NCBI GenBank assembly: GCA_015904055.1
Contig: JABMDE010000024.1
Location: 23,814-39,344, forward strand
DNA: 15,531 nucleotides
From: Nitrospira sp.
GTDB lineage: Bacteria > Nitrospirota > Nitrospiria > Nitrospirales > Nitrospiraceae
Reading direction: 5' to 3'
Part shown: one piece after another, positions 1,290 through 15,531 of the stretch
How positions within the stretch are numbered: the first letter of the stretch is position 1
Layout of the letters: each line of letters opens with the position of its first letter
Translations under genes and position numbers: made by a program
Notes under the pieces: model-generated
Database searches by the model: none
Told to the model about the DNA's origin: nothing
What the model saw: only the letters and a program-made list of their open reading frames with translations

Positions 1290-2948
1290 ATGAAACCTCT
1301 GACACCATTCGTCCTTATCCTATCCATAGGGATCAGCCTGTCCCTGGACCAAGGAGCAGCTCAAGCCCAGCATGCCGACATGGTCCGCTATGGAGAAGCC
1401 GCGGTTACCTTTGCAAACGGCGTGATCCAAAAAGTGACCCCCCGTGACGGTATCGTGAATTTGATCACCGGTGATAACCAATCATCAGGCAATCGGATGC
1501 TCATGGCACGGCGGGATACTTTCTATCTCAAACTCGATCACCCGGCTGAGGTGGCAGCCGGCGATCTCTTTACCGTCTACAAACGCGCGCGCAAAGTCTT
1601 TCACCCGCTAACACAAGAATATCTCGGCTTTATCGTGCTACGGTTGGCCGTGGTGCGAGTGATCGAGACCGATGGTGCGCTCGCAACTGTGGAGGCCGTC
1701 ACGAGTTATGGACAGGTCGCTCCGGGCGATCCCGTGATGCGGTTTATCGCGCCGCCGGCACCCGACGCAGCAACCAGCCTGACATCGGATGTCGCCGATC
1801 TCAGCGGCATGATCGTCGAATTACAGACGGATAAACCGATGACCTTGGTATCGCAATTCGATATCGTGTACGTGGACCGTGGAAGCGCGGACGGGCTCAA
1901 GACCGGTGATCTCATGGATATCCGCCGCCATAGCGTCGGAATTCCCGCAAGAAAGATCGGCCAACTCAAAGTCATATCGACCGAAGAACACACGGCGACC
2001 GCGCGAGTCATCAAAGCCAACACCCGCGTGCTCAAGGGAGACCGATTCAAGCTTGTCGGATATTCGGCTCCGGTCGTTCAACCGGTGGAACTCGTTCCGA
2101 CCCCGGCCAAGGCAGAAAAACAAGACCGGACGGGAGGACAACCGGATACCGCTTCAGCTGATCTCGTCGCCGGCAAATTGAAAACACAAGATGCCTCCGG
2201 ACAAAGCCGCATCAACTTGGGCGACGTGGCAAGCTTCCTTCGCTATGAATCCGGCGAAGCGGCGATCAAGCCTGAAAGCTACACCGTGTTGGACCAGGTG
2301 ATCGACCATCTGCTTACCAGCGGCGATACCAGGCTGATTCGGGTGGAAGGCCATACCGATAACGTAGAAATCGGTCCCTCGCTGAAGTCTCGCTATCCGA
2401 GCAATGTAGACCTCGCCAACGCCCGTGCCGGCGGCGTCCTCCGATATCTTGTAGAAAAGGGCGGATTGGATTCGGCTCGGCTCACTGCCGTAGGCTACGG
2501 CGACAGCAAACCGGCAGCCACCAATGCCAGTGAAGAAGGCCGGACGAAAAACCGTCGAGTGGAAATTCTGCTTTATGAGCCGACTACTGACCCTCAAGCC
2601 TCCACGGCCGATGTTCACAATCAGGCGCAGAAGCAAGGACGCGATTCTTCCGGTCTGAGCGCACGAGGGACAAACGGCCAACTGAGCACTCCTCAGGCCG
2701 TCCCTCTGAACTCGGGAGCCGGCACGCTTTCTGTCGGCCAACAACAGCAGGCTTCTGCCGGAGATGGAACGACACTGCCGAGCAGCCCGAACACAGGTGG
2801 GGTTATGTCATCTACCGGTCAACAACAGCCACAGGCAGGGGCAGGGGATGGAACCGCATCCTCGAATAACCCCAACACAAGTGGCGCCCCTTCACCAAAT
2901 CCGAACCAGCAGGATCCTCAGCAGCCGGCCGCTCCGGCAAACTTCTAG
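1290..2948 (+). CDS. Secreted OmpA-domain cell-envelope protein with two beta-rich modules
   Basis: A 552-residue protein probably anchored to peptidoglycan in the periplasm. The ATG at 1290 has AAGGA 8 nt upstream and opens a signal peptide (MKPLTPF, hydrophobic VLILSIGISLSL, likely cut after AQA near residue 27). Residues about 30-265 hold two glycine/valine-rich stretches (VAAGDLFTVYKRAR; GLKTGDLMDIRRH) that resemble SH3-like or FlgT C-terminal-type barrels; this part is only tentatively classified. Residues about 318-430 are an OmpA C-terminal domain: GHTDN (354-358) and RTKNRRVEI (418-426) include the aspartate and arginine that bind diaminopimelate. The tail (430-552) is low-complexity, rich in Q, P, S, G and N, with a 27-residue imperfect repeat. 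It has its own promoter. An upstream extension of the same frame to 1044 is rejected because it would bury the promoter and the signal peptide. Confidence 0.88.
   Translation: MKPLTPFVLILSIGISLSLDQGAAQAQHADMVRYGEAAVTFANGVIQKVTPRDGIVNLITGDNQSSGNRMLMARRDTFYLKLDHPAEVAAGDLFTVYKRARKVFHPLTQEYLGFIVLRLAVVRVIETDGALATVEAVTSYGQVAPGDPVMRFIAPPAPDAATSLTSDVADLSGMIVELQTDKPMTLVSQFDIVYVDRGSADGLKTGDLMDIRRHSVGIPARKIGQLKVISTEEHTATARVIKANTRVLKGDRFKLVGYSAPVVQPVELVPTPAKAEKQDRTGGQPDTASADLVAGKLKTQDASGQSRINLGDVASFLRYESGEAAIKPESYTVLDQVIDHLLTSGDTRLIRVEGHTDNVEIGPSLKSRYPSNVDLANARAGGVLRYLVEKGGLDSARLTAVGYGDSKPAATNASEEGRTKNRRVEILLYEPTTDPQASTADVHNQAQKQGRDSSGLSARGTNGQLSTPQAVPLNSGAGTLSVGQQQQASAGDGTTLPSSPNTGGVMSSTGQQQPQAGAGDGTASSNNPNTSGAPSPNPNQQDPQQPAAPANF
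2736..2897 (+). repeat. Two imperfect 81-bp repeats encoding the low-complexity tail
   Basis: Residues 483-509 and 510-536 of the OmpA-domain protein are diverged copies, each with a GQQQ start, an AGDGT core and a PNT near the end. The copies differ at many bases, so the duplication is old, unlike the perfect duplications in the signalling genes. The tail probably acts as a flexible spacer. Confidence 0.7.
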
Positions 2949-2965
2949 CCCTCATTTTTGCTCAC

Positions 2966-3007
2966 GGCGGTTCGTCGCTGGTTGAAAAACCGGATGCGAC
3001 AACCGCC
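2966..3007 (+). other. Long GNRA-capped hairpin between the OmpA-family gene and priA
   Basis: The stem is built of 7 bp (GGCGGTT 2966-2972 with AACCGCC 3001-3007), then 5 bp (GTCGC 2974-2978 with GCGAC 2996-3000), then 4 bp (GGTT 2980-2983 with AACC 2988-2991). The loop is GAAA (2984-2987), with a single-base bulge at 2973 and a small internal loop. It starts 18 nt after the stop of the upstream gene. There is no T-run after it on either strand, so a classical intrinsic terminator is doubtful. A 3'-end stabilising or processing hairpin, or a dispersed palindromic element, fits equally well. Confidence 0.6.
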
Positions 3008-3021
3008 TGCCGCCCGTGACG

Positions 3022-3051
3022 TTGTTCTCCCTTTTCCTGCGCTGCTACAAT
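3022..3051 (+). promoter_or_regulatory. Candidate extended -10 promoter immediately before priA
   Basis: TTGTTC (3022-3027), an 18-bp spacer and TACAAT (3046-3051) preceded by TG at 3043-3044 (TGnTACAAT). The -10 differs from consensus at one base. Transcription would start about 6-7 bases after it, on or next to the ATG at 3057, which has no Shine-Dalgarno sequence; the mRNA may therefore be leaderless. Confidence 0.42.
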
Positions 3052-3056
3052 GCCGC

Positions 3057-5327
3057 ATGCCTCTCGATGAACGCAGCCTTCGTGCCACTGCAACTCCAAC
3101 CCTCTACGCCGACGTCATCGTCCCCCGCCATATCGCCAAAGCCTTTACCTATGTCGTGCCTCCGGCATTGGCCCAGACACTCGCCATAGGCCAACGAGTC
3201 CTTGTCCCGTTCGGCCCATCGATCCTCGAAGGAGCGGTGATCTCGCTCAGTGATCAGCCTCCCATGGGGATACAGGCTGCCTACCTCAAAGAAATCCGAT
3301 CGCTGGCCAGCGGGACCGACGATCCCGATCTCTCGCCCGCGCGGCTCGATCTGTCTCGCGCTATCGCGGAGTACTATGTCGCACCCTGGGGCCAGTGTCT
3401 CCGGCTTGTTCTGTCGAAAACTCCTGCGAAACAGCCCAATCCTCTGCGGTATGTGGCCACCGATCAAGGTCGCACCGTGCTGGGCGCTGGAACTTGTCCA
3501 GACCATCTACGCCCCATGCTGGGCCGTATTGCGCGTCAAGCCAGAGGCCTGCTGTCATCCACTCTTCTCAAGACTCGCGACCACGATAGTCGGAAAACGG
3601 TCAAGGCGCTCGAACAACTGTCCTGGGTAGTCGCCACTGCATCACCGGTCGTCAAGACCGCGGTTTCCAAGCGACAGGCACAACCCATCGCCCAGCAAGG
3701 TGATCGAGCAGGAGACGCCGATCGGGTGCTCCTCGAGAAGATGCGGCCGGAACCTGATCGGGTATGGACCACTCGTGTGGCCGCCTGTCTTCAGGCCAAT
3801 CAGGCCAGGAAGATCGTCTTGTGCGCTCCATGGGAGGATCGGATCAGCCGGCTTGCCGATGCCATCCAACAGACACACGCCATCGGCAAGTCAGTCATCA
3901 TACTAGCCGGCGAGATTGCCAGGGCAGAATGGCTCGGACGGCTACTCTCGACCCTCACAGATCTCTCAATCACCATCGTTCCCACGTCACCGGCATCAGA
4001 TAACCGGACAGGCAGACAGGGGACAACGCCATCGGTGATCGTTGGAACTCGCTCAGCAGTATTCGCACCGCTCCCATCAATCGGTCTCATTTGGATGGAC
4101 AGAGAAGAAGATCCGGCGTTCAAGGAGCCTCAAGAACCACGTTATCACGCCCGAGAAGTCGCCTGGATGAGGGCCAAAGGAGAGGGGGCGCTGGTGGTAC
4201 TCGCATCCGCCCATCCGTCGCTGGAATCGGCATGTGACCCGGACGCCGAAACCTATGCCGTTTCACCAGAACCGGCCCGCCGACCGGCGATCGAGCTCGT
4301 CGATCTCAACCAGGAACCGGGAGGGACCCTGCTGAGCAGCACGCTGGTGGCGGCCATACAGGAAGCCGTGGACCGCAAAGCGGGTGTCCTGCTCTTCTTG
4401 AATCGTAAAGGCTACGCCAGAACGCTGGTCTGCCGGGACTGCGGCTGGATGCCGCGCTGCCCCTCCTGTGCGGTTACGCTTGCCTACTCACGCGAAGCGG
4501 GAAATTTATCCTGCAGATATTGTGGGAAGGCCGATGCCCTGCCGCAATCCTGCCCGATCTGTCAAGCAGTCCGATTCAATACCGTCGGAGATGGAACTGA
4601 GCGTGTCGAGCTCGACGTCCGGCGCTTGTTTCCCCAGGCGAAGATCGCACGGTTGGATGGCAGCAGACTGCATCGTACAGCTGCCGCACGCGACCTCTGG
4701 GAAGGAGTCCGGTCAGGAACATGGGACATCCTGATCGGCACACAGGCACTGTTTCAACGGGAACCGTTCCCGCGCAGAGGGTTGGTCGGTATCCTTCACG
4801 CTGATTCCGGATTGCATGTTCCGGACTTTCGCGCCGCGGAACACACATACCAACTGCTGGACAAAGCCGTGCGTTGTGGGCGGCCGGCGACGGAAGGCGG
4901 CCGGGTCATCGTACAAACACGGCTTCCCTCCCACCATGCCATACAGGCGGTACTGTCCGCCGACCCGCGCCGTTTTTATGATGAGGAACTGGCGGCAAGG
5001 CGTCTGCTCAACTATCCACCGGCCTGTCACCTGGCCACCCTTTCAGCATCAGGAAGAAACCGGCAAGAAGTTGAAGCGGCAGCAATAGAGTGGAAGAGCC
5101 GTCTCGAGGGGGCTCTGGATGGAAGAGCATCGATCACCCTGTTAGGACCGGTGACCGCCATGGGACGGCTGCCGAAAGGGCATCATCGGCAGCAGATTCT
5201 TGTGAAAGGAAGTGACCGTCCGCTCTTATGCCGTCTTATACAGGGATCCGTTGAGCGAATGGAAGGCACCTATCGAAGGGGGCAGATCAAGTTCGTCGTC
5301 GATATCGATCCCGTTGAGATGGGGTAA
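3057..5327 (+). CDS. priA: Primosomal protein N' (PriA) with degenerate helicase motifs
   Basis: PriA recognises stalled forks and reloads the replicative helicase. The 756-residue product has the N-terminal 3'-DNA-binding domain (YADVIVPRHIAKAFTYVVP), a winged-helix region, a helicase-like body and the C-terminal domain ending VDIDPVEMG. All eight zinc cysteines are kept (C459, 462, 468, 471, 486, 489, 499, 502). The ATPase motifs are not. The Walker A site, normally GSGKT, reads CAPWEDRIS (256-264). DEEH reads DREE (348-351). SATPS reads SAHPS (384-388). The AKGHDF part of motif V reads FQREPF (566-571). GRAGR of motif VI reads RCGRP (606-610). The frame is intact on both sides, so this is not a frameshift. 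ATP hydrolysis and unwinding are therefore unlikely. Actinobacterial PriA is a known parallel. I chose the ATG at 3057 because the conserved domain begins soon after it. In-frame TTG 2958 and ATG 2994 lie in or beside the upstream hairpin and lack a ribosome site. Confidence 0.93.
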   Translation: MPLDERSLRATATPTLYADVIVPRHIAKAFTYVVPPALAQTLAIGQRVLVPFGPSILEGAVISLSDQPPMGIQAAYLKEIRSLASGTDDPDLSPARLDLSRAIAEYYVAPWGQCLRLVLSKTPAKQPNPLRYVATDQGRTVLGAGTCPDHLRPMLGRIARQARGLLSSTLLKTRDHDSRKTVKALEQLSWVVATASPVVKTAVSKRQAQPIAQQGDRAGDADRVLLEKMRPEPDRVWTTRVAACLQANQARKIVLCAPWEDRISRLADAIQQTHAIGKSVIILAGEIARAEWLGRLLSTLTDLSITIVPTSPASDNRTGRQGTTPSVIVGTRSAVFAPLPSIGLIWMDREEDPAFKEPQEPRYHAREVAWMRAKGEGALVVLASAHPSLESACDPDAETYAVSPEPARRPAIELVDLNQEPGGTLLSSTLVAAIQEAVDRKAGVLLFLNRKGYARTLVCRDCGWMPRCPSCAVTLAYSREAGNLSCRYCGKADALPQSCPICQAVRFNTVGDGTERVELDVRRLFPQAKIARLDGSRLHRTAAARDLWEGVRSGTWDILIGTQALFQREPFPRRGLVGILHADSGLHVPDFRAAEHTYQLLDKAVRCGRPATEGGRVIVQTRLPSHHAIQAVLSADPRRFYDEELAARRLLNYPPACHLATLSASGRNRQEVEAAAIEWKSRLEGALDGRASITLLGPVTAMGRLPKGHHRQQILVKGSDRPLLCRLIQGSVERMEGTYRRGQIKFVVDIDPVEMG

Positions 5328-5344
5328 GGTTAGCGGGATTTTTT
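5310..5344 (+). terminator. Probable intrinsic terminator overlapping the priA stop codon
   Basis: CCCGTTGA (5310-5317) pairs with TTAGCGGG (5330-5337) with two G-U wobbles, enclosing a 12-nt loop that contains the priA stop, and is followed by a run of six T at 5339-5344. The structure also covers the last codons of the convergent gene, so the two 3' ends share it. The wobbles make the stem modest in strength. Confidence 0.5.
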
Positions 5345-5752
5345 CCGTACGGCCGGTTGAGACTCCTTCTTCGTGTGAGAAGGATGATCCGTCGCATCGG
5401 TGGAAGCCGCCCATGTCCGTTTGAACAGACCATACGAAAAAGCGATCCAAAATACGGAAGAGAACAGACCCAGTACGACAGCCATGAGCATCGTTTCCAT
5501 CTGGTCTTGGGAGGGGGTTTCAGAAATACCCTTAAGCTGAATCATCACGTGTATCGGCCAGGCAAAGCTTTCCAAGCCGAGCAAGAGAGTCGTCCAGGCC
5601 CAGAGCTCCGTAATGGACCGAACCCTCCACCACAGAAATCCCGCTACAGTGAAGGCCCAGAGCGCCACAATACCCTGAGCAGCAGCCCCCTGGAGAATCC
5701 AAAACCCAATGGTCGTGACGAGGGTTCCCAGGATGAGATTCAGGATGATCAT
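5330..5752 (-). CDS. Small multi-pass membrane protein of unknown function
   Basis: I do not recognise a family. The 140-residue product has about four hydrophobic segments (residues 2-20, 24-44, 50-71 and 86-111), consistent with three or four transmembrane helices. Its charged, lysine-rich C-terminal tail (from about 112, ending QPAVRKKSR) is probably cytosolic. The ATG at 5752 lies two codons after an in-frame TGA, so the start cannot be further upstream; no Shine-Dalgarno sequence is visible. It lies 55 bp after the stop of the CheY-like gene on the same strand and may be the last gene of that transcript. It is convergent with priA with only 2 bp between the stop codons. No link to signalling can be shown from the sequence. 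Confidence 0.8.
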   Translation of the reverse strand: MIILNLILGTLVTTIGFWILQGAAAQGIVALWAFTVAGFLWWRVRSITELWAWTTLLLGLESFAWPIHVMIQLKGISETPSQDQMETMLMAVVLGLFSSVFWIAFSYGLFKRTWAASTDATDHPSHTKKESQPAVRKKSR

Positions 5753-5807: not shown

Positions 5808-6209
5808 TCAATGAGGGGAAGGAACCGTACGAATCGAGGACATATCGGCTTCGGCAGCAACGGCCTCGAGCAGGATATTCACGTCGAACGGTTTCTGAAG
5901 GGTTCGGCTGGCACCCAGCATCTTGGCGACATCCAGGAAGTTCAGGATCCCGATCATGTCGCCGCCGCCGGTCATCGCAATCACGCGGGACGAGGGAAAC
6001 TCACGGTGCAGAGTCACGATACTTTCCAGACCATCTTGATCGGGCATCAGAATATCCATGATCACCACGTCGGCTTGGCGGGCCCGATATCGTTCCAGTC
6101 CCTCCTTCCCGCTACGTGCCTCCTCCACGACATACCCGGCCTGCTCCAGAATTGCCCGGACAAGACAGCGTATACGATCTTCGTCATCAATAACCAGAAC
6201 TGACGGCAT
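5808..6209 (-). CDS. CheY-like single-domain response regulator
   Basis: The 133-residue protein is one receiver domain with no output domain. The full catalytic set is present: acidic pair D8/D9 (VLVIDDED), phosphoacceptor D52 (IMDILMPDQDG), T80 (AMTGG) and K106 (LQKPF). The ATG at 6209 is chosen over a longer reading to 6359 because GGAGG stands 6 nt ahead of it and the receiver fold begins at once. It overlaps the end of the preceding receiver gene by 23 nt, pointing to one operon with the four-PAS kinase. The natural reading is that it takes phosphate from that kinase and relays it or acts by protein contact. Partners are inferred from position only. Confidence 0.92.
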   Translation of the reverse strand: MPSVLVIDDEDRIRCLVRAILEQAGYVVEEARSGKEGLERYRARQADVVIMDILMPDQDGLESIVTLHREFPSSRVIAMTGGGDMIGILNFLDVAKMLGASRTLQKPFDVNILLEAVAAEADMSSIRTVPSPH

Positions 6210-6660
6210 TAAACCCCTCCCGCGACAATTGTGATCGCTCTTCGCGTTGTATCGACAGCTCAGTTGATGGTGGACAGGCTGCAGATCGAGCATCCAAGAC
6301 CCGCCGAATCCTATGCGCCAGGTCCTGCACTGTAAGCGGCTTCGGAGCGATGTCGACAATTCCGCTCATATGATTGTCTTCATTGAACAGTGCCTGCTCC
6401 GAACCGACACAGAGGATCACCGGCAGATCCGGTCTCAGTTGCCGACATCGGTGGGCCAGTCGATCTACGGACATATCGGGCAGAGTCAGATCGGCAATCA
6501 AGAGATCCACGCGCTGCGGAGCCAGATCGAACGCCTGCCAGGCCGCTGTTCCACTCGTCAGTATGATCAGACGGTACCCGAGCGACTCCAGCATTTTCTG
6601 TCCGGACGTGACAAAAGATTCCTCGGCCGCCACGAACAGGATACATTCGCGTCCATACAT
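6187..6660 (-). CDS. Receiver domain split off from the upstream hybrid kinase; degenerate active site
   Basis: A 157-residue receiver. Phosphoacceptor D57 (LIADLTLPDM) and K107 (APKPL) are kept, but the acidic pair that binds magnesium reads AA (ILFVAAEES, A11/A12) and the usual Thr after strand 4 is Val (ILCVGS, V85), so phosphorylation is doubtful. The first in-frame residues, GREC, repeat residues 827-830 of the kinase gene, which it overlaps by 94 nt. A perfect 14-bp tandem duplication at the junction shifts the frame. With one copy removed, the kinase would read straight through into this receiver as a hybrid protein. The ATG used here is provided by the duplication itself, with only a weak GGA as ribosome site, so expression may be low. 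A 50-residue tail after the receiver runs into the CheY-like gene. Confidence 0.82.
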   Translation of the reverse strand: MYGRECILFVAAEESFVTSGQKMLESLGYRLIILTSGTAAWQAFDLAPQRVDLLIADLTLPDMSVDRLAHRCRQLRPDLPVILCVGSEQALFNEDNHMSGIVDIAPKPLTVQDLAHRIRRVLDARSAACPPSTELSIQREERSQLSREGFNAVSSGY

Positions 6661-9146
6661 TCGCGTCCGCGCGGGAGTGAGTTATCAGGTACAGGAACCG
6701 CCGCCGCAGAGCGAGACAGCGCAGGGATATAGACCGACACCACTGTGCCGACATCGATCTGACTGTCGACCACGACAGTCCCTCCGTGCGCCGTCACAAT
6801 CCCATGGACGACGGACAACCCCATTCCACGTCCCTCACCCAATGGCTTGCCGGAAAAGAACGGCTCGAAGATTCGATCGGCAACCGCCGGTTCCATGCCT
6901 TCGCCGGAATCTCGTACGGTCAAACAGGCGTAGCGGCCGGCCGCCAGTCGGCCAGACGGTGTGATCTGATCAGTCTTGATTTCTTTGTCTTGGAGATGGA
7001 ATGCCAGAATTCCTCCGGTCTTCCTCATGGCATGGATGGCATTGTCCGCCAAATTCATGATCATCTGATGCATCTGCGCCGTATCGGCCAAGACAGGACT
7101 GGTCGATGCATCGATCTGCTCTTTGAGTTCGATCGAGGAAGGGATCCCGGCACGCAAAGGCTTGATGGCTTCCTTGACCAACAAATGGAGAGGAAGGGGA
7201 TGCCGGACTTGTTCGCTCTGCCGGCTGAATGTCAACAGCTGATGGACCAGCTCGCGCGACTCCATTCCGGCGGACAGCACTTGTTGAACATAGTGATGCG
7301 CCTTATTGTCGTTGGGAATCAGCGGGAGTGCCAGATGGCTGAAACCGAGCACCGCCGTCAGGCTGTTGTTGAACTCATGCGCAATGCCGCCGGAGAGTGT
7401 GCTGAAACCGAGCACCGCCGTCAGGCTGTTGTTGAACTCATGCGCAATGCCGCCGGAGAGTGTGCTGATCGCCGTCATCTTCGACGCAATACGCAGAGAC
7501 GCTTCGACCTTCTTGCGATCGGTGATATCGATGACGATGCCAAGCGTACGGCTGGGCACAGGCGTAGCGCCATCCCCATTGAACCAGGTACGGGAATTCA
7601 GGCTGATATGCCGAATTTCACCATCGGGCCTGACGATCCGGTGTTCGAGATGGAACTGCCCGTTGCCCGCCGGATCATGGGCTCCCTTGACCGCGGAAGA
7701 GACTTTCTCTCGATCGCTTTCATGGACAAGTTCGATATAGCGTTGAAGAAGGCCGGGTTCATCCGCGCTCACACCGTAGATTGACCGCAGAACCGGCGAC
7801 CAATAGAGCGTATCCGATTGATGATCATGCTCAAAGATACCGACCTGCGCGGTACGAACGGCGAGATCCAGTCGTTCTTCGCTTTCCCGAAGCCGACCCT
7901 CCGCCTGGCATCGGGCTGTGATATCAATGACCGCAACCAGTAGCGAAGTCCCCGAAGCCATGGTAACGGGATTCAGACCGATCTCGGTAGGAAATTCAGA
8001 ACCATCATGACGCAGCCCGCACAATTCCATCCCGTGTCCCATAGGATGGACCACGGCGGTGGACAACGCCTTCTCCCTCGCCATTTCAAAGGTCACGCGG
8101 TCGTGCACACAAAAGAGCGTTTCCACCGGTAACCCCAGCAACTCGTCGTGAAAGTAGCCAAACATGTTCTCAATCTGCGTATTGGCCATCGAGATAACGC
8201 CGTCCTGGCCAACCATCAGCAGACCGTTAGGGGCAGATTCCACAACCTGCCTAAATAGAAGATCCTGCTCCTTTGCCGACATGTCGAGCGACGCCCCGGC
8301 CGTCTGATCTTGAACGATCCCTAAGAAGCGAATGGGTTCGCCGGCGAGGTTGCGAATGACCAGCCCTCGAAAGTGGACGGCGCGAACATTCCCGCTGGGC
8401 TGAACGATTCGACATTCCACATCAAAAGGCTCATCCAAGGTGAGTGAGCGTTCACCGGCATCAAGGACCCGCCCACGGTCTTCAGGATGAATGGCAGCCT
8501 TGAACGTGTCATACGTGGGCAGGATCCTGCCCGGCTCATAGCCAAACATACGGCACTGTTCATCAGACCATATTTCCACACCGGTACGAATATCCCGCTC
8601 CCACCTTCCAAAGCAGGCGGAAGACCGGGCTGACTCCTGATGTGCGCCGGTTCTGACTATGCCGTGATCGCGCGACTGGTCAGACACATCAATGGAAACA
8701 CTCTCTGCTTCCCGGCATCGTGTGACATCGATCATCACCCACACCATCGCGGTTAGGCGCCCCATTCGGCCTTTTACCGGCGAGAGGGTAATTTCATTCC
8801 AAAAAGAAGTGCCGTCCTTACGGTAATGGAGCAGACAGACCCGGCAGGCCCTCCCCTGCTGGAGAGCCAACTCAAGCTTTTCCACGGAGGCCTGATCAGT
8901 ACCAGGACCGGCCAGGATGGCCATGTTCTTACCGACGATCTCGCTGTCCGTATAGCCGGTCAGTAACCGGAAGGCAGGATTCACGTGGGTCACGGGATGA
9001 TGGGACGCCCTGGCATCAGTCATTACCACGCCGCATCCGGTGGCCGCGATGACTTTCGACTGGAACCGGCACTCTCGGCGTTGCCGAACAAGACGCCAGA
9101 CCGCAATGCCAAGAAGCAGGAGAGCGGAACCGGTGAAAACAACCAC
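6567..9146 (-). CDS. Membrane-anchored four-PAS histidine kinase, frame-shifted before its receiver
   Basis: An 859-residue sensor kinase. The GTG at 9146 has GAGG 5 nt upstream and an in-frame TGA five codons before it. Residues 2-20 form a single membrane anchor with no periplasmic loop, so sensing is cytosolic. Four PAS domains follow (about 27-130, 160-275, 285-410, 415-545). The first has LOV-like features but Met75 where photoactive Cys would be. The dimerisation/phosphotransfer domain has two identical histidine boxes, GGIAHEFNN with H569 and H590, because of a perfect 63-bp tandem duplication. The ATPase domain is complete: N box around N702, DSGEGM at 746-751, FEPFFSGK, and GRGMGLSVVHG. 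After residue 830 the frame is shifted by a 14-bp duplication, so the last 29 residues are nonsense relative to the receiver that should follow. Kinase function may survive; intramolecular phosphorelay cannot. It heads a group with a receiver and a CheY-like regulator. Confidence 0.93.
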   Translation of the reverse strand: MVVFTGSALLLLGIAVWRLVRQRRECRFQSKVIAATGCGVVMTDARASHHPVTHVNPAFRLLTGYTDSEIVGKNMAILAGPGTDQASVEKLELALQQGRACRVCLLHYRKDGTSFWNEITLSPVKGRMGRLTAMVWVMIDVTRCREAESVSIDVSDQSRDHGIVRTGAHQESARSSACFGRWERDIRTGVEIWSDEQCRMFGYEPGRILPTYDTFKAAIHPEDRGRVLDAGERSLTLDEPFDVECRIVQPSGNVRAVHFRGLVIRNLAGEPIRFLGIVQDQTAGASLDMSAKEQDLLFRQVVESAPNGLLMVGQDGVISMANTQIENMFGYFHDELLGLPVETLFCVHDRVTFEMAREKALSTAVVHPMGHGMELCGLRHDGSEFPTEIGLNPVTMASGTSLLVAVIDITARCQAEGRLRESEERLDLAVRTAQVGIFEHDHQSDTLYWSPVLRSIYGVSADEPGLLQRYIELVHESDREKVSSAVKGAHDPAGNGQFHLEHRIVRPDGEIRHISLNSRTWFNGDGATPVPSRTLGIVIDITDRKKVEASLRIASKMTAISTLSGGIAHEFNNSLTAVLGFSTLSGGIAHEFNNSLTAVLGFSHLALPLIPNDNKAHHYVQQVLSAGMESRELVHQLLTFSRQSEQVRHPLPLHLLVKEAIKPLRAGIPSSIELKEQIDASTSPVLADTAQMHQMIMNLADNAIHAMRKTGGILAFHLQDKEIKTDQITPSGRLAAGRYACLTVRDSGEGMEPAVADRIFEPFFSGKPLGEGRGMGLSVVHGIVTAHGGTVVVDSQIDVGTVVSVYIPALSRSAAAVPVPDNSLPRGRECMDANVSCSWRPRNLLSRPDRKCWSRSGTV
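6641..6668. repeat. Perfect 14-bp tandem duplication at the kinase-receiver junction
   Basis: ATACATTCGCGTCC occurs twice in direct succession (6641-6654 and 6655-6668; minus-strand unit GGACGCGAATGTAT). Fourteen is not a multiple of three, so it puts the kinase frame out of register with the receiver frame. Both frames read G-R-E-C in their own copy, which shows the original single-copy reading. Confidence 0.97.
7338..7463. repeat. Perfect 63-bp tandem duplication covering the phosphoacceptor-histidine box
   Basis: Copies at 7338-7400 and 7401-7463 are identical, and the identity runs 5 bases further (68 bp aligned at a 63-bp offset). It adds 21 residues (TLSGGIAHEFNN...VLGFS) and keeps the frame. 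Twenty-one residues are three heptads, so the coiled-coil register of the dimerisation helix can be kept while the active histidine is present twice. Confidence 0.98.
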
Positions 9147-9308: not shown

Positions 9309-9974
9309 TCAGGTCTGCCGTTTGACAAAGAGCGCCGCCGCCTGCGAGCGGCGGGTGATATGAAGTTTATGAAAGACATTGGCAAGATAATTTTTCACGG
9401 TCTTGTCGCTCTTGTCGCTCAGATCGAGTGCGGTGGCAATTTCCTTGTTTGTTTTTCCTTCGGCGACGAGCGCCAGTACCCGCTCTTCCTGTGTGGAGAG
9501 TTTTTCCACCCCCGGCATATCTTTGCCGGCTGCCAATCCGCGCAGCCACGCGAGCGCACGGTCGGTCACGGCGGGGTCCAGAATCGACCTGCCCTCGGAG
9601 ACAGCACGGATCGCGCCGATCAACGACAGCGCATCGATGGCTTTCAACACATACCCGTGCGCACCGGCCAACACGGCAGCCAGAACCGAGTCGTCGTCGG
9701 CATAGGAGGTCAGAATGATCACCCGGAGAGCGGGAAACGAGGCAAGGAGGTCTCGGCAGGCATCGACACCTGAACCATCAGGAAGACGCACATCCATGAG
9801 CACCACGTCTGGTTTCAGGTTCTCTACTTTTCTGATTGTCTCCGCAATCGTCGCCGATTCTCCCACTACCTGAATAGAGCCATGCTGGCTCAGCACCGTC
9901 CGAAGGCCCACACGAACGATCTCATGATCGTCCACGAGCAAGACACGAATGGTCTTGAGCTTCGCCTTATTCAT
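9309..9974 (-). CDS. NarL/DevR-type response regulator with a 3-residue insertion in its HTH
   Basis: A 221-residue DNA-binding regulator. The receiver has all key residues: D15/D16 (LLVDDHE), phosphoacceptor D61 (VLMDVRLPDG), T89 (ILTSYAD) and K111 (GYVLKAI). A LuxR-type helix-turn-helix fills about residues 153-216 (EERVLALVAEGKTNKEIA ... TVKNYLANVFHKL), and the C-terminal RRSQAAALF recalls DevR/DosR. The turn reads LSDKSDKTVKNY, where the family normally has LSDKTVKNY, because of a perfect 9-bp tandem duplication; residues S186-K191 are SDK twice. This may weaken or change DNA binding. The ATG at 9974 has AGGAGG 7 nt upstream and overlaps the end of the giant kinase by 8 bp (ATGAATAA), so the kinase is its obvious partner. 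A terminator follows directly. Confidence 0.95.
   Translation of the reverse strand: MNKAKLKTIRVLLVDDHEIVRVGLRTVLSQHGSIQVVGESATIAETIRKVENLKPDVVLMDVRLPDGSGVDACRDLLASFPALRVIILTSYADDDSVLAAVLAGAHGYVLKAIDALSLIGAIRAVSEGRSILDPAVTDRALAWLRGLAAGKDMPGVEKLSTQEERVLALVAEGKTNKEIATALDLSDKSDKTVKNYLANVFHKLHITRRSQAAALFVKRQT
9402..9419. repeat. Perfect 9-bp tandem duplication inside the helix-turn-helix
   Basis: CTTGTCGCT occurs twice in succession (9402-9410 and 9411-9419). It inserts Ser-Asp-Lys in the turn before the recognition helix of the NarL-type regulator without changing the frame. Confidence 0.95.
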
Positions 9975-12900
9975 CGGCCGACCTCCTGGGTATATCCAGC
10001 AGCACTTTCGTCCCTTGCCGGGGCCGAGAGCGAACCTCGATCCGACCGCTAAGCTTCCGCGCCCGCGCCGCCATATTGACCAATCCGTGCCCGACGTCGC
10101 GGACGGCCTCCGGGATAAATCCTTTTCCGTTATCAGTCACCGACAGACGGACGGATCGTCGCAGCCGTTTGAGCGACAGCGTGATGCGGACGGCCCCGCT
10201 GTGGCGGAGGCTGTTGCTCAGCGCCTCCCGCATGATATTCATCACATGATACGCCTGTTCCGTCGAAAACTCGTGAGCCGCGGCCTCCTCAATCGTCACA
10301 CGGCATGCCGTTCCGTTGGATGCGCACATGGCCTGAACCATCGTCCGCAAGGTCTCCCCGACATCGGCTTCTTCCAACACGTGCGACTCGATGCCCGCAA
10401 TGAAGTTCCGGACGTCGGTCATGACATGATTCAGCTGTCCGATCGCGCGATTCAAGGCGGCCATGAGCGGCGAGGCGGCCTTCTTACTCGACAACGGCCG
10501 CTTGGATACGAACGTCCTGCAGGATTCCAGGCCCAGACCAACCGCAAAAATGGACTGTAAAATGCCGTCGTGCAGATCCTCGCTGATCCGCTCGCGTTCC
10601 TTGACCGCGGCACGCAGATCCTGTTCCCGTTGACGGAGCATCTCTTCCACACGCTTGCGTGCCGTGATGTCGGTCGAGGCGCCCAGGAGCATGACGGCCT
10701 GACCCTGGGCATTAAGAAGCGGCCGCTTGACGGTTTGCAGCCAGCGGATCTTTCCGGTGGTATCCGTGATCTTCTCTTCAAGAATAAACCGTTCTTGCAC
10801 CATGTCCATCACCTCGAGGTCTATCAGACGGAACTGCGCCACTTCCTCACAACGCGAATTGAAATCCACATCGGTTTTCCCGAGCAAATTCTCCACTGTT
10901 GTTCCATAGACATCGGCGGTCGCCTTGTTGACCAGCGTGAACCGCCCGTCGCGGTCCTTCGCAAAAATAAAGTTTGGATCCGTATCGATCACTTGCCGCA
11001 TGAAGGCGTGAGAATTCTGCAGTTCCACTTCCACCCGCTTGCGCTCCGCTGTTTCCATCATGCGCCCAAGGACTTCGCCAACCGCCGCACCAAAGTTTTG
11101 GGTCTCATGGGTCCAGTCCCTGGGCAACCCGACATGTTCAAGCCACATCACTCCCACGAGTTTGCCTTGACGACGAATCGGCACATCCATCATGGAGGTA
11201 ATCCCCAGCGGAAGAAAATAGTGATCGACAAATTCGCTCATGCGCGGATCGGAAAGAGCGTCAGGCGCAGCCACCACCAGACTTGCCGCGATTGCCTCTA
11301 AGTAACGGGGGTACTGCGAGGTCGAATGCCTGCTGCCGGAAAAATGGACGGCGTGTGAACGATCGTAGAGGTTCTGGCAGACCAGCTCAGTCCCGTTCTC
11401 AGATAGCAGCCACACGCTGACGCGAGCGACTCCAAGTGTCTCTGCCACGATCTCGCACACACGCGGTAGTACGTCAGAGAGTGTCCAGTCCGCATCGTCG
11501 AGGTGTGTGAGACGGAGGAGCGCAGCCTGCATCTTCACGACCTGTTGGGTCCGCTCGTTCACCTCATGCTCAGTACGCTTACGCTCGGTGATGTCCCGCA
11601 TAAAACAGTGATAGCCAAGATAGCGCCCGTCGTCCTGGTCATTGATTCGCACCATCAAGATTTGCTTCCAGAAGGTCGAGCCATCTTTTCGCTGTGCCAG
11701 GGCTTCGAACTCTCCCTTTCCATTCCGGTGCATCGCCTCGTAGGCTGCTTCCGCATTGGACAAATGGTCCTGAGCAACTGTGTGATACCACGTTCCCCCG
11801 ATGAGCTCGGCTGGATCATAACCCAGTGCGGCCGCATACATGTCATTCACCGAGGTATACACCCCTTGAGCGTCCATCCGTGCGATGCCCGGCATCGCGT
11901 TGGCCAAGGCGATGTTCATTTCTCGCAACGTTTCTTCTGCCAGTTTGCGCTCAGTCACGTCCTCACAGGCAACCAGCACCACGGTCTCTCCGTTAGAAGA
12001 CTGTCCGATACGGACTGTTTCCCTCACCCAAATGACAGTTTGATCTTTCCGCACCTTCCGAAACTCCAAGTGCTGCGTCAACTCCGGCACCAGAAGACAC
12101 TCGGACAGGCTCGAAGCAACAGTATTCTTATCGTCTTCATAATAAACATCTAGTACAGAACGGCCAACCAATTCCTCCACACAATACCCGAGCAGCTCGG
12201 CTCCAAACCGATTGACCGACCGCACCGTGCCGTCCGTCGCCAACGTGAAGTACATGGTGGGAGTTTCGTCATATAACGTCCGATACCGTTCTTCGCTCAC
12301 CCGCAACGCCTCTTCTGCCCCCTTGCGCTCAGTAATGTCCACCGTCGCGCCGATCAGCCGGACAATGTTTCCTGCTTCGTCCCGGTTGGCGTGTCCTCGG
12401 ACGTGGGTCCAAATGATCGATCCGTCTTTTCGGATCATCCGAAGTTCATAGTGGTACTCGTCTGTGGCTCCAGACACGATTTGTTCCCAGTTCTTGAGCG
12501 CGATGGGTTGATCGTCGGGATGGACGAGGCCAAGCCACGCAAAGGGATCGGTCGAGAGCTCGCCGGGTCCATAACCGAACAGAGCCTTGAGATTCGCGTC
12601 GCCGTGATACTGGCCACTCGCGACGTCCAATTGCCACACCCCTACATTCCCGATCGCCGTGGCACGGGCATATCGCTCCTCGCTCACACGCAACGCCTCC
12701 TCCGCCCGTTTGCGCTGGATCATGAACGCGATGTGACCGGCAATCGTCTGCGAAATCTGCAGCTCTTCTTCTGTAAACTGATGCGGAGTATCGTAATAGA
12801 GCATGAATTTCCCCAGCAGCCCGTCGGACGACCACAAGGGGATAAAACTCATCGCCCGGATTCTCTCGGCGCGAAACACTTCTCTATACGCTTCCGTATA

Positions 12901-15531
12901 CGGATCTTCTTCGATATCAGTCACACTCTTCGGCGGCGGATTCACGGCCTCGCGCGTCCATGGAGAATGGCCCTCCACCGCTTGTATATATTCTTTCGAG
13001 AGACCCCGTGATGCCTTGAATTTCATCACGCCATCGTTGTCAAAGAGTAAAATAGAGGCACGATCCACCTTGAGCGCCCCCTGCACACCGTTGATCCCCT
13101 GTTCGTAGATTTCCTCCAGCGAGGAAGCCCGGGACAGAGCCACGGTCATGTTGAAGATGGCCTGCAGCGCCTCGTACTGTCGTACCCGCACTGCTTCAAA
13201 CTCCTTGCGCTCGGTGATGTCGGTATGCGAGCCGAGCAGTCGCACGCGCCGACCATCCGGCTCCGTGATGAACGAGGCGTGTGAGTCGATCCACCGATAG
13301 GTCCCGTCCTGATGGCGCAGGCGAAAGTCCTGGCGAAACGCCCCTAACGGGTTGTCGAGATAGTCCCGTGCGTAGGCCACGGCGCGGGCGCGATCGTCCG
13401 GATGCAATCGTGACTCCCAGTTCTCGAACGTGTCCGGCAGCTCTGCTTCGCTGAACCCGAGTTGGCTTTTCCATTCCTGAGAAAAGGACACCTCTCCCGT
13501 TTCCGTATTCCAATCCCACAAGCCGGTGTTGGAAGCCAGCAGCGCTTGCCGCAGTTTCTGCTCAGACGTTTTGAGCGCCTGCTCGCCCCGCTTCCGTTCG
13601 ATCGCGAAACGGGTCAGATTGGTCATGCGATTGATCAGCTGCAGATCCGCCGGTACAGGTTCGCGCGGCATGCTGTAATAGAGTGCGAACGCGCCCAACA
13701 CCTGCCCATCGGTGGCGATGATCGGAGTCGACCAGCAAGCCCGAAGACCGTGGTTCAATGCAAACTCGCGATACTTTTCCCACAACGGATCGGTGGCGAT
13801 GTCCGACACGATCACCTGACGGCCCAAATAGGCAGCTGTGCCACACGAGCCCACGTCAGGGCCGATAGCCACGCCATCGATCGCTCTGTTATACGATTCC
13901 GGCAGACTGGGGGACGCGACATGCCGCAGATGCTGCCCGTCCTGGTCCAGCAGCAACACGGAGGCCAGCATGCCCTGGCTGAGCGACTCACAACTTTGAC
14001 AGAGAAAGGTGAGCGTATCCGATAGTGAGTGGGAGGACGCCAGCAACGCCAGCACCTGATTTTCCGCTTCCAGGAGCTGTTCGGCTCTTTTCCGTTCGGT
14101 GATGTCGAAGATCACACCGTCACAAAAACTGAGCGACCCGTCAATGGAAAACACACCCTGACCTTTCTCATACACCCACCGGATCGTGCCATCGTGGTGG
14201 AGAAGTCGATATTCCATTTGGTAGGGCTCTTTTCCGTCCAATCCCTCATGTACGCGATCTTCGACGAGTCGGCGATCATTGGAGTGAATCACGCTGGCAT
14301 AGGATCGGACCTGATTATTCAGAAAGTCCGAGGCGGGATAGCCCGTCAGCTGTTCGATGGCATCGCTGAGATACGCCATTGTCCAATGCTCGTCCGCGGC
14401 ACAACGATAGATGGCCCCCGGAATGTTGTCGACGAGGGATCGAAATCGCGCTTCGCTTCCCCGAAGCGTCTGTTCCATTTGCTTCCGCTCGGTGATGTCA
14501 TGAGTCACGGCAAGATGCTCGGTGGAACCCGTAACCGGATTCCGGAACGGAACTGCGTAGGTTTCCATCCATCGCCGTATCCCTTGCCCTCCCTGAAGCT
14601 CGAACTGAAGTGTTTGTGATGCTCCCTTGATCACCGCCTGGTGCATATCGATGAACAACGCTCGGTGCTCGGGTACGACCAGGTCGAACACCGAGCGCCC
14701 AATCGCGTCTCTCTCATCTAGCTCGACCATGCAGAGACCGGCCGGGTTCATGGATAGCAGGGTCCCATCTGCCGCGACACGTTTGATACAGCCGGGGCCC
14801 GTACTCAGCATCAGCGAAAGAAGCATTTCCCGTCTGACTTGCTCTTCTTCCTCCCGCTTGCGCACAGTGATGTCACGGCCCACCCCCGTCAGTCCGATGA
14901 CATGACCCTCGCCGTTACTCAACCGTGCGCCGGTCCAGTGATAGGGAATCGTTTGGCCGTCCTTCGTCAGCAGATGGCCATCTAGTTCTGCATAACCATC
15001 CCGAAAGGCCTGCTGAATCGCCGATGCAGTGCGTTCATGCTCCGCCGATGGAACAAATTCCAGTGCGTGTTTATTGAGGAGTTCTTTCGCGCTGTAGCCC
15101 GTCACTCGTTCCAGCGTCTGGTTCCAGCGAACCAGGCTGCCCTGAAGATCCAACGTGAACAGAACATCGGGGATGGTTTCCATAATGTTGTGGAGATCAG
15201 CCAGGGCCCGGTTTCGCTCTTGTTCGGCGCGCGCCCGTTCCAATTCCGCTGATGCCCGAGAGGCGAACATGGTCAGCAACGATCTCAACCACTCCCCGTC
15301 ACATATCGGCTTGACATCCATGATCACGAGCAATCCGATCACCGCTCCGTTTTTCCCTCTGAGCGACAGGCCGCAATATCCTTCGACCTGTAACTGGCCT
15401 AATCGCGTGAACGAGGGAAAGGCGGATTGAACGCCTCGTTCAAAACAGGCAAAGGAAGACGCAAGCGCCGTTTCGCACGGGGTGTGTACTAGATCGTATT
15501 CGAAATTGTCGACCAGCGCGCCGCCCGCAGC
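9967..15531 (-). CDS. Giant soluble sensor histidine kinase, 8 PAS and 4 GAF domains (5' end outside window)
   Basis: At least 1854 residues are visible and the frame is open to the window edge, so the start lies outside. The edge itself encodes a GAF domain (YDLVHTPCET ... GLLVIMD). Order, by nucleotide: GAF 15531-15300; PAS 15190-14870, 14840-14480 and 14450-14090; GAF 14060-13590; PAS 13560-13200; GAF 13180-12700; PAS 12680-12320, 12300-11940 and 11925-11575; GAF 11560-11040; PAS 11020-10645. Most PAS domains end in a DITERK-type linker. The core is of the NarX/DegS type (HisKA_3): ERERISEDLHDGILQSI with the phosphoacceptor His at 10572-10570, then an ATPase domain with NSLRHSG, DNGKGF and GHGLVNMAARA at about 10280-9985. 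No membrane segment is visible, so it is probably cytosolic and reads several internal signals. No GAF ligand can be named. It is followed, with an 8-bp overlap, by the NarL-type regulator, its probable partner. Confidence 0.94.
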   Translation of the reverse strand, partial: AAGGALVDNFEYDLVHTPCETALASSFACFERGVQSAFPSFTRLGQLQVEGYCGLSLRGKNGAVIGLLVIMDVKPICDGEWLRSLLTMFASRASAELERARAEQERNRALADLHNIMETIPDVLFTLDLQGSLVRWNQTLERVTGYSAKELLNKHALEFVPSAEHERTASAIQQAFRDGYAELDGHLLTKDGQTIPYHWTGARLSNGEGHVIGLTGVGRDITVRKREEEEQVRREMLLSLMLSTGPGCIKRVAADGTLLSMNPAGLCMVELDERDAIGRSVFDLVVPEHRALFIDMHQAVIKGASQTLQFELQGGQGIRRWMETYAVPFRNPVTGSTEHLAVTHDITERKQMEQTLRGSEARFRSLVDNIPGAIYRCAADEHWTMAYLSDAIEQLTGYPASDFLNNQVRSYASVIHSNDRRLVEDRVHEGLDGKEPYQMEYRLLHHDGTIRWVYEKGQGVFSIDGSLSFCDGVIFDITERKRAEQLLEAENQVLALLASSHSLSDTLTFLCQSCESLSQGMLASVLLLDQDGQHLRHVASPSLPESYNRAIDGVAIGPDVGSCGTAAYLGRQVIVSDIATDPLWEKYREFALNHGLRACWSTPIIATDGQVLGAFALYYSMPREPVPADLQLINRMTNLTRFAIERKRGEQALKTSEQKLRQALLASNTGLWDWNTETGEVSFSQEWKSQLGFSEAELPDTFENWESRLHPDDRARAVAYARDYLDNPLGAFRQDFRLRHQDGTYRWIDSHASFITEPDGRRVRLLGSHTDITERKEFEAVRVRQYEALQAIFNMTVALSRASSLEEIYEQGINGVQGALKVDRASILLFDNDGVMKFKASRGLSKEYIQAVEGHSPWTREAVNPPPKSVTDIEEDPYTEAYREVFRAERIRAMSFIPLWSSDGLLGKFMLYYDTPHQFTEEELQISQTIAGHIAFMIQRKRAEEALRVSEERYARATAIGNVGVWQLDVASGQYHGDANLKALFGYGPGELSTDPFAWLGLVHPDDQPIALKNWEQIVSGATDEYHYELRMIRKDGSIIWTHVRGHANRDEAGNIVRLIGATVDITERKGAEEALRVSEERYRTLYDETPTMYFTLATDGTVRSVNRFGAELLGYCVEELVGRSVLDVYYEDDKNTVASSLSECLLVPELTQHLEFRKVRKDQTVIWVRETVRIGQSSNGETVVLVACEDVTERKLAEETLREMNIALANAMPGIARMDAQGVYTSVNDMYAAALGYDPAELIGGTWYHTVAQDHLSNAEAAYEAMHRNGKGEFEALAQRKDGSTFWKQILMVRINDQDDGRYLGYHCFMRDITERKRTEHEVNERTQQVVKMQAALLRLTHLDDADWTLSDVLPRVCEIVAETLGVARVSVWLLSENGTELVCQNLYDRSHAVHFSGSRHSTSQYPRYLEAIAASLVVAAPDALSDPRMSEFVDHYFLPLGITSMMDVPIRRQGKLVGVMWLEHVGLPRDWTHETQNFGAAVGEVLGRMMETAERKRVEVELQNSHAFMRQVIDTDPNFIFAKDRDGRFTLVNKATADVYGTTVENLLGKTDVDFNSRCEEVAQFRLIDLEVMDMVQERFILEEKITDTTGKIRWLQTVKRPLLNAQGQAVMLLGASTDITARKRVEEMLRQREQDLRAAVKERERISEDLHDGILQSIFAVGLGLESCRTFVSKRPLSSKKAASPLMAALNRAIGQLNHVMTDVRNFIAGIESHVLEEADVGETLRTMVQAMCASNGTACRVTIEEAAAHEFSTEQAYHVMNIMREALSNSLRHSGAVRITLSLKRLRRSVRLSVTDNGKGFIPEAVRDVGHGLVNMAARARKLSGRIEVRSRPRQGTKVLLDIPRRSADE

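Follow-up and report, generated by a model that had tools for sequence, protein, structure and literature searches.

The closest counterparts of the kinase described here are PAS-domain hybrid sensor kinase/response regulators (P0002-P0055 in our search; those that carry an organism name belong to Nitrospira or Nitrospiraceae), in which the same kinase and receiver domains occur in the same order. The closest of them, P0002, shares its junction residues, RGREC-ILFVAAEE, with the window, by which is meant the whole 15,531-nucleotide stretch of DNA that was analysed (Table 1). These proteins are single chains with a single H-box, whereas the window kinase has acquired a second H-box and a frameshift.

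Waite and co-workers reportedly found, in 2001 and 2003, tandem duplications that had arisen spontaneously in capsule genes of pneumococci. As in those genes, the duplication in the window lies inside an ORF; unlike them, the window comes from an environmental bacterium and has taken several hits. A natural pneumococcal isolate in which a capsule gene carries a short tandem duplication has also been described (PMC4022640). Tandem duplications that arose through microhomology in the ssp1 gene are covered in a fungal review (PMC13207564), and the 63-bp duplication of the window, which lies between 5-bp direct repeats, resembles the cases given there; the 14-bp duplication differs from them in having no microhomology, as does the host in being a bacterium.

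Receivers that have lost their chemistry are likewise known. According to Bourret et al. (2025; PMC12632262), an active receiver is defined by five residues (DD, D, T and K), and a pseudo-receiver is a PF00072 match in which at least one of DD, D, T and K is missing. The putative receiver of the window shares with the bacterial pseudo-receivers described there a PF00072 match without DD and T, and differs from them in having been detached by a frameshift. Among the titles and abstract openings retrieved, which cover the literature in part, none named a hybrid kinase split by tandem duplication.

Table 1. Genes and perfect tandem duplications of the window discussed in the text
Feature	Position	Strand	Remarks
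priA	2958-5327	plus	syntenic marker that placed the window
Stand-alone small receiver	5808-6209	minus	overlaps the detached receiver ORF at its end; Shine-Dalgarno site strong
Detached receiver ORF	6187-6660	minus	157 aa; begins MYGRECILFVAAEE; start in first repeat copy; pseudo-receiver
Sensor histidine kinase, truncated (PAS repeats, HisKA, HATPase_c)	6567-9146	minus	859 aa; last 29 residues an out-of-frame tail
Perfect 14-bp tandem duplication	6641-6668	minus	kinase-receiver junction; 2.0 copies; ends without microhomology
Perfect 63-bp tandem duplication	7338-7468	minus	period 63, 68 matched; H-box doubled in frame
NarL/LuxR-type response regulator	9309-9974	minus	221 aa
Perfect 9-bp tandem duplication	9401-9420	minus	adds Asp-Lys-Ser in GerE/LuxR helix-turn-helix of the adjacent regulator
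Large multi-PAS NarX-type kinase	9967-15531	minus	open at window edge

The kinase-receiver junction and its ancestral state

As the initial annotation had stated, the 14-bp unit is present twice at the junction: GGACGCGAATGTAT was found as two head-to-tail copies with 0 mismatches (6655-6668 and 6641-6654, minus strand), and no third match to the unit occurs in the window with up to 2 mismatches allowed. The kinase frame enters copy 1 in phase 0 and copy 2 in phase 2, and the receiver frame reads copy 2 in phase 0, exactly as the kinase reads copy 1. Consequently the kinase terminates 29 residues past RGREC (TGA at 6567-6569) and the ATG of copy 1 starts the receiver ORF, both of which had been described correctly. 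The kinase loses its receiver because the duplication shifts the frame. A hybrid histidine kinase carries HisKA, HATPase_c and receiver in one chain, and in the window the receiver lies in a separate frame.

In shuffled sequences the 14-bp unit had a mean of 0.14 matches, with two matches reached in 1 of 200, and perfect tandem repeats of period 14-100 were absent from all of 200 Markov sequences matched to the window in length and composition. A chance origin of the 14- and 63-bp repeats was therefore rejected relative to shuffles and Markov sequences; real relatives do carry a few repeats of 14-15 bp in control DNA.

The kinase search found 1282 proteins and, among the 120 listed, the 54 best after the window itself (P0002-P0055) were examined; lower-ranked proteins of other architectures without PF00072 were left out of the fusion count. 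The receiver was in the same chain as the kinase in all 54, with 24-27 residues between the kinase and receiver landmarks in the alignment, and no split homologue was found among them. Five of these proteins, P0002-P0006, were seen to have the single-copy junction. Since all 54 are fused, the fused single-copy state is ancestral and the split of the window kinase recent, so that this part of the interpretation in the initial annotation is supported. Compared with P0002, the kinase has 38 differences in the 809 positions before the junction, and the receiver 2 in 155 when the first two, misaligned residues are set aside (3 in 157 by script). Ancestral junction DNA was sought in the closest genomes, where the stretch has been lost from one (G073) and a contig ends at this point in another (G110).

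A wider family search gave matches in 47 of 175 genomes, and 30 of these matches became loci. An open frame runs from the H-box to the receiver in 21 of the 30, 19 of them recognised by motif; the remaining two, L023 and L037, were identified by eye. The other nine (L024-L027, L033, L034 and L038-L040) form another class, with open frames of 773-804 aa and an H-box near the C-terminus; in L024 and L033 a receiver-like tail comes immediately after the H-box, which gives the impression of a deletion that took out the ATPase domain and the bulk of the receiver.

A second H-box and a degenerate receiver

The 63-bp duplication, which like the 9-bp one goes unmentioned in the initial annotation, repeats the H-box segment TLSGGIAHEFNNSLTAVLGFS in frame, so that the kinase has two candidate phospho-accepting histidines, His569 and His590, 21 residues apart. 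Its matched run is 68 because its ends share TCAGC, a 5-bp microhomology. The H-box segment measures 44 residues in the window and 23 in all 54 homologues of the alignment. A motif scan of the same 54 proteins found one H-box in 49, none in five (sequence variation) and two in none, and the duplication is private to the window kinase among the homologues compared. Residues 583-830 of the kinase show only 3 differences from P0002, which, together with the ORFs being still open, points to selection that was strong until recently.

The window receiver matches PF00072 (E 9e-10), with AA in place of DD and V in place of T, the D and K being kept; it is accordingly a pseudo-receiver, as are those of P0002-P0006. 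Across the 54 homologues the acidic pair is DD in 48, DA in two (P0006 and P0032) and AA in four (P0002-P0005), and the AA and DA proteins are among the closest relatives of the window kinase. The phospho-acceptor D and the K are conserved in the window and in every one of the 54.

These observations bear on the proposal, made in the initial annotation, that a single event turned an intramolecular relay into two proteins, which finds no support as far as a working relay is concerned. The acidic pair and the Thr had already gone in the four close and still fused relatives P0002-P0005, so there was probably no working relay left to split, and the intramolecular phosphorelay, judged from residue conservation, had probably been lost before the split. 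The proposal is also undercut by the duplicated H-box of the kinase and by the new ATG of the receiver, whose Shine-Dalgarno pairing is no better than typical: its pairing energy with the 16S tail is -3.2 kcal/mol, compared with a median of -3.0 for 185 background ATGs. The corresponding values are -10.8 for the small receiver and -11.0 for the regulator, both clear sites, and -5.8 for the GTG of the kinase. The receiver ORF begins 91 nt upstream of the kinase stop and in a different frame, and 91 nt is far for translational reinitiation. On these signals the detached receiver ORF would be poorly rather than efficiently translated, this being the likelier of the two.

Neighbouring genes and the cluster in related genomes

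The adjacent regulator has also been altered. The best 120 of the 7987 homologues found are 196-220 aa long, mostly 217-218, and none of these 120 is as long as the window protein. The Asp-Lys-Ser insertion was absent from all eight aligned homologues, and this 9-bp duplication in the DNA-binding turn is private to the window.

The six genomes nearest by PriA (top of the search) were G110, G073, G065, G072, G079 and G094. Cluster parts have been lost at the site in three of them (G073, G065 and G072), the receiver is damaged in G110, and G094 is intact, keeping the order priA, small receiver, hybrid kinase, regulator and NarX-type kinase. The site cannot be judged in G079 because its contig begins 434 bases from priA; the other kinases of that genome are only distantly similar. 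A further genome, G056, is intact, with small receiver, hybrid kinase, regulator and the end of the NarX-type kinase, and priA adjoins. The completeness of these genomes is uncertain, so that absence from a whole genome is weaker evidence than a changed site.

In G073, about 90% identical in DNA, two stretches are missing: window 5968-6108, which lies within the small receiver, and window 6244-6723, covering the receiver and the junction. A kinase scar of 36 nt remains, and the genome gave no kinase match at E 1e-30. At positions 4700-5561 of its locus L084 (contig C272) the kinase locus has collapsed: the C-terminal scar of the kinase is, by eye, joined to the receiver tail, and the small receiver has an internal deletion. 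In G065 (70%) the kinase is absent between small receiver and regulator, and the regulator is reduced to its DNA-binding half. The small receiver of the window stands within 60 bases of the small gene at 5330-5752, unlike in G072, where 949 bases past the copy of that gene hold no receiver recognisable by eye. In G110 (78%) the receiver, at a contig end, has an in-frame stop and a 144-bp deletion. The window kinase resembles a pseudogene or decaying locus in two respects: its frame is broken relative to conserved homologues, and damage has occurred independently in relatives (G073, G065, G072 and G110, with G094 and G056 intact).

Some further differences were noted at these sites. The G073 stretch lacks most of the OmpA-like gene at 1044-2948 (window 1377-2841) and a part of PriA at window 3467-3674 (about 210 bp by hand), the latter probably in frame. 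The far end of the L084 region is presumably a tRNA-Leu region. Positions 1-949 of the G072 locus (L087, contig C8) hold other sequence in the place of the small receiver, perhaps including an unrelated reading frame close to where the contig begins, and the receiver pseudogene of G110 (L083, contig C474, 3300-3869) has DN instead of DD.

Origin and meaning of the duplications

The explanation preferred here, and considered probable, is early decay of the hybrid kinase/regulator cluster through slippage-type duplications. It would have started from a hybrid histidine kinase whose receiver was already a pseudo-receiver. Tandem duplications of slippage or microhomology type would then have struck the kinase twice, once through the H-box (63 bp, between direct repeats of 5 bp) and once at the junction (14 bp); the third, of 9 bp, would have hit the neighbouring regulator in its DNA-binding turn. 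The frameshift from the 14-bp duplication detached the receiver, whose frame stays open behind a chance ATG but is probably translated poorly, and the cluster has been lost or damaged several times in the group of relatives. The repeats, the frames, the ancestral fusion, the degeneration of the receiver and the cluster damage in relatives are observed directly, whereas slippage as the mechanism, non-functional products and relaxed selection are what we infer. Counting against decay, the ORFs are still open, neither the 63-bp nor the 9-bp duplication breaks the frame, the contig of G110 ends within the receiver, and groups of at least three repeats within 2.8 kb occur in control DNA too.

The window holds a hybrid kinase caught soon after splitting, with a fused relative of 95% identity still in existence, and the suggested order of events is that the chemistry of the receiver was lost first and the covalent link second. 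There is also a warning in this: what looks like a kinase with an orphan receiver can differ from an ordinary hybrid by a single mutation, and is not necessarily a two-protein system that has evolved as such.

The number of repeats gives some weight to a sequencing, amplification or assembly artefact, which is nevertheless unlikely. Control DNA of 800 kb from eight relatives held 16 perfect tandem repeats with a period of at least 9, of which three had a period of at least 14 and none one above 15; scaled to the window, 0.31 and 0.06 would be expected, and the numbers observed are 4 and 2 (Poisson 3e-4 and 0.0016). An earlier set of 40 loci (L001-L040, 261 kb) held 11 repeats, none with a period of at least 14, and the pooled controls gave expectations of 0.40 and 0.04 (Poisson 7e-4 and 9e-4), although all of these statistics are overstated because the window was chosen for having a repeat. 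The three private perfect duplications (14, 63 and 9 bp) fall within 2.8 kb, and at least three repeats within 2.8 kb were found in 5 of 3440 sliding windows of the 800-kb controls, so that clustering alone is not unique; a period near 63 bp was found in none of the controls. Against an artefact, the 28-bp and 20-bp arrays are shorter than the usual assembly words, and reads should have contained them; the 5-bp microhomology at the ends of the 63-bp duplication is as often seen in real events; and the private repeats sit in a cluster that is damaged in relatives too.

Two possible causes of the repeats found no support. A mutator lineage is unsupported, since repeat rates are ordinary in the two genomes nearest by PriA, with three repeats of period at least 9 in 124 kb of G073 and two, both of period 14, in 93 kb of G110 (21 stretches each); a further 40 kb from G094, G065 and G072 held three, two of them in GCT runs. 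Special secondary structure as a driver was not indicated by single-strand DNA folding (z-scores 1.07, -0.38 and -0.73).

The 14-bp array might also be a reversible contingency locus, in which the hybrid kinase is off while two copies are present and comes on again when one of them is precisely lost. Perfect repeats inside an ORF and the precedent of the pneumococcal capsule genes speak for such a switch, which is nevertheless unlikely. Just two 14-bp copies with 0 bp of microhomology are a weak substrate, two further duplications would also need reverting, and cluster parts have been lost outright in three of the six related genomes. An array retained in related genomes is characteristic of phase-variable loci, and this one is missing from all 235 order-level genomes, even when two mismatches are tolerated. 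In pneumococci, reversion of insertions of at most 9 bp is put at no more than about 1e-5 by a paper that cites the results of Waite (PMC4022640), and a rate no higher than this would be expected for such insertions.

Equally improbable is a functional fission, in which the kinase, perhaps as a two-histidine enzyme, and the free pseudo-receiver work as two proteins. Both ORFs are open and the ATG is in frame, the 21 added residues amount to three heptads and could preserve the helical register, and the phospho-acceptor Asp and the Lys are kept in the window and in all 54 homologues. These points are opposed by a new ATG without Shine-Dalgarno pairing above background, by the position and frame of the receiver start relative to the kinase stop, by the loss of three of the five active-site residues, and by the uniform fusion of the 54 homologues. 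That a two-H-box kinase (one helix) and a free pseudo-receiver are both expressed and each revertible, as a multi-state contingency switch, is most improbable of all.

The fourth perfect tandem repeat of the window, of 9 bp at 14037-14054, lies in the large NarX-type kinase and was rejected as a further private duplication, as the homologue P0247 has, by eye, the same length there. Another protein, P0241, matches the open frame at 9967-15531 and is recorded on two contigs (the longest of 92,866 bases), so that a second assembly of this region may exist.
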